Assembly: GCF_005405925.1 (NCBI RefSeq)
Contig: NZ_BJHV01000001.1
Coordinates: forward strand, 3,968,001 to 4,032,000
Direction: 5' to 3'
Length of the DNA stretch: 64,000 nt
DNA from: Streptomyces antimycoticus
Lineage (GTDB): Bacteria; Actinomycetota; Actinomycetes; Streptomycetales; Streptomycetaceae
In this document: positions 1,151-4,100 of the stretch, in pieces
Layout: each line of letters opens with the position of its first letter
Position numbering within the stretch: the stretch's first letter is position 1
Made by a program: the position numbers and the translations under genes
Notes under the pieces: model-generated
Database searches by the model: none
Told to the model about the DNA's origin: nothing
What the model saw: the letters and a program-made list of their open reading frames with translations, nothing else

Positions 1151-4100
1151 GCGCCCACGGCCTGGACGGGCAGGCCCGACTGGGCGCCGGTGCCCGCCAG
1201 TTCGTCCCGGAGGTGTTCGGCCAGGACGAGGGAGGTCGGGTAGTCGAAGACCAGGGTGGCGGGGAGCCGCATCCCGGTGACCGCGTTCAGGCGGTTGCGC
1301 AGTTCGACGGCGGTCAGCGAGTCGAAGCCCAGATCGCGGAAGGCGCGGTCGGGGTCGACGGAGTCGGCGGTGCCATAGCCCAGGACGGCGGCGACCTGGG
1401 TACGGACCAGCTCCAGCAGCGTCTCCAGCTGCTCGGTCCCGTTCAGGCGGGCCAGCCGCTGCGCCAGGGCACCCGTTCCGGCGGAGCCCTCCGCCGTACG
1501 CCGTGCCGGGACCCGCACCAGCCCGGACATCAGCGGGGCCACCACACCGGTGGACGCCGCCTCGGCCCGTGCCGCCGCCAGGTCCAGCCGCACCGGGACG
1601 AGCAGGGCCTCGCCGGCCCGTCCGGCCGCGTCGAACAGTTCCTTGCCCTCGTCGGTGGCGAGCGCGGCGACACCGCCCCGGCTCATCCGGGACACATCGG
1701 CCTGGTCCAGCTCACCGGCCATACCACCGGATTCGGCGGCCCACAGGCCCCAGGCCAGGGACGTTCCGGGCAGCCCGAGCGCCGTACGGTGCTGGGCGAG
1801 CGCGTCCAGGTAGGCGTTGGCGGCGGCGTAGTTGCCCTGTCCGGCGGCGCCGAAGACACCGGCGGCGGACGAGAAGAGAACGAACGCGGAGAGGTCGAGG
1901 TCGCGGGTCAGCTCATGCAGGTTCCAGGCCGCGTCCACCTTCGGACGCAGCACCCGCTCCAACCGCTCCGGCGTCAGCGAACCGATCACGCCGTCATCCA
2001 GCACACCGGCCGTGTGCACCACGGCCGTCAGCGGATGATCGGCGGGGAGCGCGGCCAGGGTTTCGGCCAGCGCGCCACGGTCGGCGACATCACAGGCCGC
2101 CCATCGCGCCTCGGCGCCCAACGCGGCCAGTTCCGTGCTGAGTTCGGCCGCGCCCGGAGCCTCGCCACCACGGCGGCTGACCAGCAGCAGCTGCCGTACG
2201 CCACGCTCGGCCACCAGGTGGCGGGCGAACAGAGCTCCCAGCGTGCCGCTCGCCCCGGTCACCAGCACCGTGCCGTCGGCGTCGAACTCCGGCGCGTCCT
2301 CCCCGTTGCCCGAACTCGCGGCGGCGGCCCGCGCCAGGCGCGGTGCCCGCAGTACCCCGTCCCGTACGGCCACCTGCGGTTCGCCCGACGCCAGCGCGTC
2401 CGGCACCGCCCTCAGCGAGTCGGCCGCGCCGTCGACGTCGACCAGGACGAACCGGCCGGGGTTCTCCGACTCGGCGGAGCGCACCAGGCCCCAGACGGCG
2501 GCATGGGTCAGATCGGCCACCGGCTCGTCCGTACCGGCCGCCACGGCGCCCGAGGTCAACAGGACCAGGCGCGAGTTCGTGAAGCGGTCGTCATTCAGCC
2601 ACTGTTGCAGCAGGCTCAGCGCCTGGGCGGTGGCGCGGTGCACCGTGTCGGCGGGTGAGGAGCTTTCCCCTATCCCGCCCCTTCCCGCAACCTGGGGCTC
2701 CGCCCCAGGACCCCGGTCCTCAATCGCCGGACGGGCTTGAAGGGCGACCACCACGTCATCCGGCACCGTCGCACCGGACTCGACCGCCGTGGCCAGCGCG
2801 TCCAGGTCGGCGTAGGTGTCGAACCGCTGCCCGGTCGACGCCAGGTCGAGCGCGTCGGATCCCAGCAGCGCCCAGCGTCCCGCCGGGCCCTGGGCAGACA
2901 CCTCGGGCCAGTCGAGCCGGAACAGCGACTCCTGACGGCCGCCCCGTGCGCCCTGGATCTGCTCGACGGACACCGGCCGCAGCACCAGCGAGTCCACCGA
3001 CAGCACAGCACGCCCGGCACCATCCGCCACCGCCAACGACACCGCGTCCGCACCAGCGGCCGACAACCGCACCCGCAGCACCGAAGCACCCACCGCATGC
3101 AGCGAGACACCAGCCCACGCGAACGGCAGCCGGGCACCCTCGCCCTCGATCAGACCACCAAGACCCACCGCATGCAGCGCGGAATCCAGCAGCGCCGGAT
3201 GCAGGCCGAACGCGCCCGCCCCGGACCGCGCGTCCTCCGGCAACTCTAGCTCCGCGTAGACCTCGCCATCGAGCCGCCAGGCGGACGTCAGCCCCTGGAA
3301 CACCGGGCCGTACGTCAGCCCCGCCTCGGCCAGACCCTCGTACAGGCCCTCAACGGGCAGCTCCGACGCCCCCGCCGGAGGCCACGCCGCCAGGTCGAAC
3401 GACGCCGCGGGCGCGCCCGAGCCCAGCACACCCGAGGCATGGCGCGTCCACGCCTCGTCGACCGCCGCGTCCTCGTGCCGCGAGTACACCGTCAGCAAGC
3501 GGCGTCCCGAAGCGTCGGGCGCACCCACCGACAGTTGGAGCTGGACGCCGCCGACCTCGGGAAGCACCAGCGGCGCCTCCAGCGTCAGCTCCTCCAGCAG
3601 ATCGCAACCGACCTGGTCACCGGCGCGGATCGCCAGCTCGACGAAGGCCGTGCCGGGGAGCAGCACCGAGCCCGCCACCGCGTGATCGGCCAGCCACGGA
3701 TGGGTGTCCAGGGCGAGACGGCCGGTGTAGAGGAATCCGTCGGAGTCGGCGAGCGCCACCGCGGCACCCAGCAGCGGGTGGTCGGCCGCGCCGAGCCCGG
3801 CGGACACCATGTCGCCCGCCCAGTAGCCGGTGTCGAGCCAGTAGGTGTCGCGCTGGAAGGGGTAGAGCGGAAGGTCCGTACGGGCCGTGTCCGTGCCGGC
3901 GAACACCGCGGCCCAGTCCGGGGTGACGCCGTGGACGTGCGCCCCGGCGACGGCGGCGGCCAGGCTCTGGAGCTCCGGGCGGCCGGAGCGCAGCGCGGAC
4001 ACAAGGGTGGCGTCGTCGCGGGTCAGGCAGTCCTGGGCCATCGCGGTGAGCACACCGTCCGGGCCCAGTTCCACGAACTTCGTGACGTTGCGCTCCTCCA

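Follow-up and report, generated by a model that had tools for sequence, protein, structure and literature searches.

In-frame palindromic inserts are, in the accounts cited here, best known from Rickettsia and Wolbachia. The cited portions of the work on the Rickettsia palindromic elements (RPEs) and the protein-coding palindromes of Wolbachia (Ogata et al.) describe palindromic repeats of about 100–150 bp that are intergenic elsewhere, and that also occur in frame inside proteins at unstructured positions where the enzyme domains are kept (PMC2229807, PMC10969869, PMC2996958). A system located within polyketide synthases (PKSs) is that of the GRINS, presented in the cited extracts as PKS repeats of about 1 kb that have a strong skew and recur with high identity elsewhere in the same PKS. 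The limits given there are a minimum length of 500 bp to about 1 kb, and a skew in GC and TA of more than 0.15 or 0.25, depending on the source (PMC10394414, PMC9899208). No description of the repeat presented below, or of palindromic inserts in PKSs, was found in the open-access literature, subscription papers being outside the scope of the search.

The window is a stretch of 64 000 nt of Streptomyces antimycoticus DNA. Its first part (1–6588, minus strand) is occupied by a PKS open reading frame with the domain order docking-KS-AT-DH-KR-ACP-KS, which continues past the window; from stop to stop it spans C1:3953034–3974639. Within this frame lies a repeat block of 91 bases (2656–2746, minus strand), present far above chance expectation. 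It is an in-frame copy of a dispersed hairpin repeat, as judged from genome matches and translation, and makes up most of the linker QARPAIEDRGPGAEPQVAGRGGIGESSSPADTV. On the minus strand the frame stays open across the insert and measures 7202 codons from stop to stop, in agreement with the claim of an earlier, sequence-only reading that the reading frame survives. The core of the hairpin (2691–2709) is CCTGGGGC-TCC-GCCCCAGG, with an 8 bp stem and a 3 nt loop, and is common to both half-types of the repeat. The 111-nt stretch folds with an ordinary energy (z = −1.5, with 16 of 200 shuffles equal or better), so unusual fold energy was ruled out as the hallmark of the block, which is its repetition. 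A scan of 2400–3000 against Rfam gave no family match at E up to 1.

The insert sits in the structural half of the ketoreductase (KR). All elements of this domain are encoded on the minus strand. The β-strand DVVVA, part of DDVVVAL (2743–2757, model residues 69–73), comes directly before the insert, and the α-helix PADTVHRATAQALSLLQQWLN (2593–2655, model residues 103–123) follows it. The portion of the structural subdomain 3′ of the insert is matched by SpnB_Rossmann (2335–2631, protein residues 1320–1418), and the catalytic subdomain is whole, with Pfam KR (1738–2274, residues 1439–1617) matched at positions 1–179 of 180. The linker from DDVVVAL to HRAT comprises 33 residues here, and 11 both in KR C of the same PKS (SSDGDGGPAAV) and in protein P0019 (APGGDGGSAAV), giving a net gain of about 22 codons. 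The sequence-only reading was right to place an insert in this linker; its size of 26–32 codons was an overestimate. Its statement that other modules have a short linker holds for KR C and fails for three further modules of the same PKS that carry the insert, two just outside the window (C1:3921975–3922052 and C1:3927815–3927891) and one inside it (39355–39458). In an AlphaFold2 model based on an 11-row alignment (mean pLDDT 78.1; five models ranging from 59.5 to 78.1) residues 77–100, located between the strand and the helix, have a pLDDT under 50. The insert is predicted to form a low-confidence loop that is probably disordered. The model has the fold of solved PKS ketoreductases, 2fr0 among them (TM 0.81 on the query), and the sequence alignment to 3slk is gapped at the insert. 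In this single model, with its 11-row alignment, the insert site appears to be an unstructured, tolerated part of the protein.

Copies of the repeat are scattered over the 11.17-Mb genome, with at least 59 matches at E up to 1e-3, itself included; because scoring covered 40 of the 123 first-look candidates, this number may be a lower bound. The best match outside the PKS (C1:3120217–3120286, 93% identity) has E = 1.1e-21, and the two better ones are PKS copies. Among the matches listed, 55 non-PKS rows fall in 36 fetched loci that contain 82 nhmmer matches. Applied to the window and 40 fetched stretches, nhmmer gave 88 matches, in which the window copy is counted twice via an overlapping stretch. 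The matches comprise full copies and two half-types, covering model positions about 3–58 and 36–83, that have the hairpin CCTGGGGCTCCGCCCCAGG in common. A tandem run of second halves (L058) and inverted pairs (L030 and L034) are also present. The run, at L058:924–1673, is an intergenic array of half-units with a spacing of about 100 bp, and is a non-coding counterpart of the coding arrays described below.

All 82 non-PKS matches lie in sequence called non-coding by a codon-usage model. The same model also labelled three of four known PKS inserts as non-coding and was dropped as proof in its own right; the intergenic assignment therefore rests on gene order and frame tests. The genes around the 36 non-PKS loci are convergent in 15, tandem in 20 and divergent in one, and 35 of the loci border one or more gene 3′ ends. 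At none of the 20 tandem loci does a single frame pass through the repeat into the next gene. The gene frame enters the copy before its stop at three of the 50 gene 3′ ends that face a repeat (L031, L042 and L059); at L042 it takes in the copy wholly and at L031 partly, and at both L042 and L059 it runs through the copy ahead of the stop. As read from the sequence, the repeat may form a C-terminal tail of the upstream gene at L042:1504–1607, L059:1420–1473 and L031. Stop-free frames extend over 72 of the 82 copies, and were set aside as coding evidence because they are common by chance in a GC-rich genome. In this genome copies inside genes were found only in the KRs of one PKS. Across eight genomes there were 16 weak non-PKS rows, of which seven were fetched, two are the loci L032 and L033 of this genome, and seven are outside the examined set. 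Where measurable, the codon score in the 150 nt adjacent to the fetched rows is −0.05 or lower, compared with +0.21 to +0.55 in the in-frame KR flanks. Insertion in many unrelated protein genes was not found in the rows examined.

Like REP and REPIN sequences, the repeat is a short palindrome with many copies, extragenic and near gene 3′ ends, and it forms tandem runs and inverted pairs. Unlike them, it has a coding subset, and its own genome contains no match to the REP-type tyrosine transposase (RAYT, PF01797). This was the sole mobilising enzyme sought, and the control was positive in five of 14 genomes. A RAYT-driven origin was dropped on the absence of PF01797 from the genome. The repeat had been called mobile or dispersed in the sequence-only reading; with matches genome-wide it is dispersed, and mobility is not borne out, since PF01797 is absent and gene conversion between modules is the mode of spread for which there is evidence.

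Among 40 relatives searched, the repeat is present in 21 of 24 from the same genus and in none of 16 outside it. In 392 Streptomyces genomes at least 41 matches span KR inserts, in nine genomes including this one, and none contains a stop; this is a lower bound, with 17 candidates per genome scored and the frameshifted copy F (see below) outside the set. G181 carries the same insert at the orthologous site with 96% identity, and an NCBI protein from Streptomyces sp. NEAU-YJ-81 carries it with 97%. A protein search returned 77 homologues at E up to 1, of which 16 have the insert, recognized by motif or by eye in a tally that leaves out P0013 and P0016. Their sources include S. malaysiensis, S. 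rapamycinicus, S. violaceusniger, S. asiaticus, S. javensis, S. yatensis and S. himastatinicus, all within NCBI's violaceusniger group. A search of related loci, with the weak loci L074 and L076 left out, adds S. iranensis and S. sabulosicollis from this group, together with S. antioxidans, S. rugosispiralis and S. endocoffeicus, which are not listed in it. The proposal that a dispersed hairpin repeat became coding sequence is supported at the DNA level by the matches in this genome, in the relatives and in the set of 392. A lack of other copies had been named as counting against it, and further copies occur both in the host and in other Streptomyces.

The occupancy of the KRs was compared in six genomes, G000 (the present one), G181, G071, G112, G400 and G196. 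There are seven syntenic positions that can be filled, termed A to G, four of which are filled in this genome, one with a frameshift. All six genomes have the insert at A (3922), B (3927), E (the copy at 2656–2746) and F (4007). At C and D it is absent from G000, G181 and G071 and present in G112 and G400; G196 has a copy at C that is out of frame with its own KR core, and its position D was not recovered. G, for which the KR lies at 58429–59746 (minus strand) in the window, is empty in G000, G181, G071 and G196, and is filled in G112 and G400, and also in G388. No insert was seen at the remaining KR positions listed in the six genomes. The insert had been treated as a feature of one module; it is instead a recurring and expanding one, found at up to seven module positions.

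The copy at F, on the minus strand and identified by nhmmer and its frames, is elongated, with the KR core starting at about 38983. A change of frame within the insert splits the PKS frame here into ORFs 39256–53310 and 28076–40180. In G181, G071, G112, G388 and G400 the matches at F are contained in open frames of 8634–8765 aa, and the frameshift (window 39256–40180) may be either a real lesion or an assembly error. Elsewhere in the window, at 17025–29318, the PKS frame is broken into several overlapping ORFs and a KR present in relatives (G181 5315915) was not recovered; these breaks could be frameshifts due to assembly error or decay.

In relatives the insert has grown into arrays of variable length, with the units ARPAIEDRGPGAEP and ARPAIEDTPEGRP. 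The length from strand to helix is 35–83 residues in 45 empty KRs and 56–158 in 36 filled KRs. Unrelated low-complexity repeats are found in the same loop of other KRs, at C1:4042139 in G000 (glycine-alanine, outside the window) and in G388b 5654, which fits a tolerant loop. The glycine-alanine repeat at C1:4042139 differs between relatives.

Substitutions in 25 insert units (24 codons each, picked by amino-acid pattern and compared in non-independent pairs) are distributed 33, 29 and 38% over codon positions 1, 2 and 3. The corresponding shares in two neighbouring KR windows from these genes are 31, 14 and 55%, and 17, 13 and 71%. The equivalent intergenic comparison is based on only three gap-free copies with 29 differences. 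The codon-usage score is about −0.5 in the inserts A, B and E, where the flanks have +0.21 to +0.55; the empty KRs C and D score +0.42 to +0.57 at the corresponding site. The substitution pattern suggests that the residues of the insert are almost free and that its amino-acid sequence is little constrained. The frame is mostly kept, with breaks in F of this genome, between the insert and KR core of G196, and in S. rapamycinicus protein P0012, which ends in a second insert with a broken frame.

Orthologous KRs were compared in 195 of 200 pairs at 15 positions, five being dropped for gaps or stretch ends. Pairs in which one member is filled and the other empty (n = 20) have a background identity of 90.2% that falls to 74.7% beside the linker. 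At the same positions empty/empty pairs (n = 12) have 91.6% and 93.0%. Filled/filled pairs (n = 63) have 91.4% and 84.4%, and pairs at never-filled positions (n = 100) have 91.6% and 91.2%. The Mann–Whitney p of 2e-15 is computed as if the pairs were independent, which they are not, and so shows only that the difference is large. The drop in identity occurs only beside the insert, and therefore a short replaced tract has moved the insert, i.e. gene conversion between modules. For example, at position G the identity between G000 and G400 is 98% at −750, 69% at −500, 84% at −250 and 88% at 0, and 96–99% from +250 on. C and F of G112 are 48 kb apart and have 877 bp in common at 99.4% under strict scoring, the insert included; upstream the identity is 66–73%, and downstream it is 90–91% for 500 bp and then 66–73%. 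With the same scoring, the D/E tract is 577 bp at 98.6% in G112 and 666 bp at 96.2% in G400. Conversion-like tracts also occur in modules without inserts, and the insert may therefore be a mere passenger.

A tree of the 3′ flanks (63 rows that cover 11 of the 15 positions, one of them, n3954_G112, being very long and doubtful) requires two changes for the filled KRs, compared with 21.3 in shuffles, none of 500 being as low. In G400 both C and D cluster with E of that genome; in G112 D clusters with E, and the 3′ flank of C is identical to that of F. The filled KRs at G and E of G196 are loosely placed relative to the other filled KRs, and one change is given by 50% of 200 bootstrap trees. These comparisons favour, and do not prove, a single origin followed by conversion. 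A MITE would have terminal inverted repeats and a target-site duplication; neither such a duplication nor a clean empty site can be read at the KR inserts, because conversion has replaced the flanks.

The insert shares with the GRINS, as the cited extracts portray them, its location inside a PKS and its tie to gene conversion between modules. It differs in being short and derived from a genome-wide intergenic repeat. It was rejected as a GRINS on size, about 90 bp, and on skew, set against the limits quoted from these sources. The 500-bp windows that hold A, B, E and F have GC skews of −0.23, −0.14, 0.09 and −0.07, and TA skews of −0.29, −0.33, 0.03 and −0.13, respectively. A exceeds 0.15 in absolute value with the sign reversed, and in this window its identity to B is no more than about 70%. 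A strong, GRINS-like skew is seen just upstream of the C, D and E KRs (GC up to 0.30, TA up to 0.55), in stretches at window about 2783–3783, C1:3959747 and C1:3965006.

The data are probably explained by a tolerated loop derived from a dispersed REP-like repeat that was inserted probably once, grew into arrays and was converted between KR modules. The source would be a Streptomyces REP-like hairpin repeat that normally lies between genes near gene 3′ ends. It would have entered the KR of a giant type I PKS in frame, probably once and before the sampled strains split, the likely point of entry being the loop between the strand DVVVA and the next helix in the structural subdomain. There it could survive because the loop tolerates extra residues. 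Whole-codon lengthening and shortening, seen in the ARPAIEDRGPGAEP and ARPAIEDTPEGRP arrays, would have followed, and, as sequence comparison shows, conversion tracts of roughly 0.4–0.9 kb around the insert carried it between modules. The open frame would persist since any frameshift would cut short a protein thousands of residues long. It is unlikely that the insert instead entered the same hot spot of several modules in repeated independent events, as might be suggested by the filling of seven module positions in one genome or another, by the half of the bootstrap trees that need more than one change, and by the filled G KRs and E of G196, which do not go firmly with the other filled KRs. 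Against this, every KR insert seen has one orientation and frame, and another frame or strand would have been possible as the 16 full-length intergenic copies leave from two to all six frames open. Moreover the filled KRs have a common 3′-flank sequence that is missing in their empty orthologues, and the long near-identical tract of C and F in G112 also speaks against separate events.

No function of the loop is necessary to account for the data. That A, B, E and F are occupied in each of the six genomes could reflect selection for the loop, and together with the mostly kept frame this speaks for a selected linker in some modules, acting in spacing, docking or co-translational pausing at an mRNA hairpin. 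Such a role is nonetheless unlikely given a codon-position pattern near neutral, the variation from 56 to 158 residues in the filled KRs, the occurrence of the orthologous modules C, D and G with and without the insert, and the unrelated expansions of the same loop (G000 4042139 and G388b 5654). An assembly artefact, or chance GC-rich low-complexity sequence, has a negligible probability. The assembly does have split frames elsewhere in the PKS, yet the orthologous inserts of G181 and NEAU-YJ-81 and the non-PKS copies with E down to 1.1e-21 stand against it, and the presence of the same insert in independent genomes refutes the artefact that the sequence-only reading had held out as its own disproof. 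The tolerated loop, spread by conversion, is probably selfish, like the RPEs. As set out in the cited portions of the RPE and Wolbachia accounts, those elements, like the Streptomyces repeat, are dispersed and palindromic with both intergenic and in-frame intragenic copies. The likeness is one of descriptions, and the host here is a GC-rich actinomycete. By the same accounts RPEs occur in many unrelated genes, whereas the in-gene Streptomyces copies were found at one site of one PKS family, where they expand into arrays and spread between paralogous modules by gene conversion.

The exonised repeat might in addition be an active seed of recombination, with near-identical hairpin arrays raising gene conversion around the KR. 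The dip in identity beside the insert is 7.0% in the 63 filled/filled pairs, compared with 0.4% in the 100 pairs at never-filled positions. Conversion-like tracts also occur where there is no insert, so that this reading, which is speculative and of low probability, is permitted and not demonstrated. If it were true, a selfish intergenic repeat would be speeding the re-mixing of a giant antibiotic assembly line. The insert provides a case of palindromic in-frame insertion in free-living antibiotic producers, in a multi-domain enzyme for which the KR fold is well known. It points to a loop of PKS ketoreductases that can take up anything from zero to about 120 additional residues, a property of use in engineering, and it serves as a natural sequence tag with which gene conversion between PKS modules can be tracked across species.
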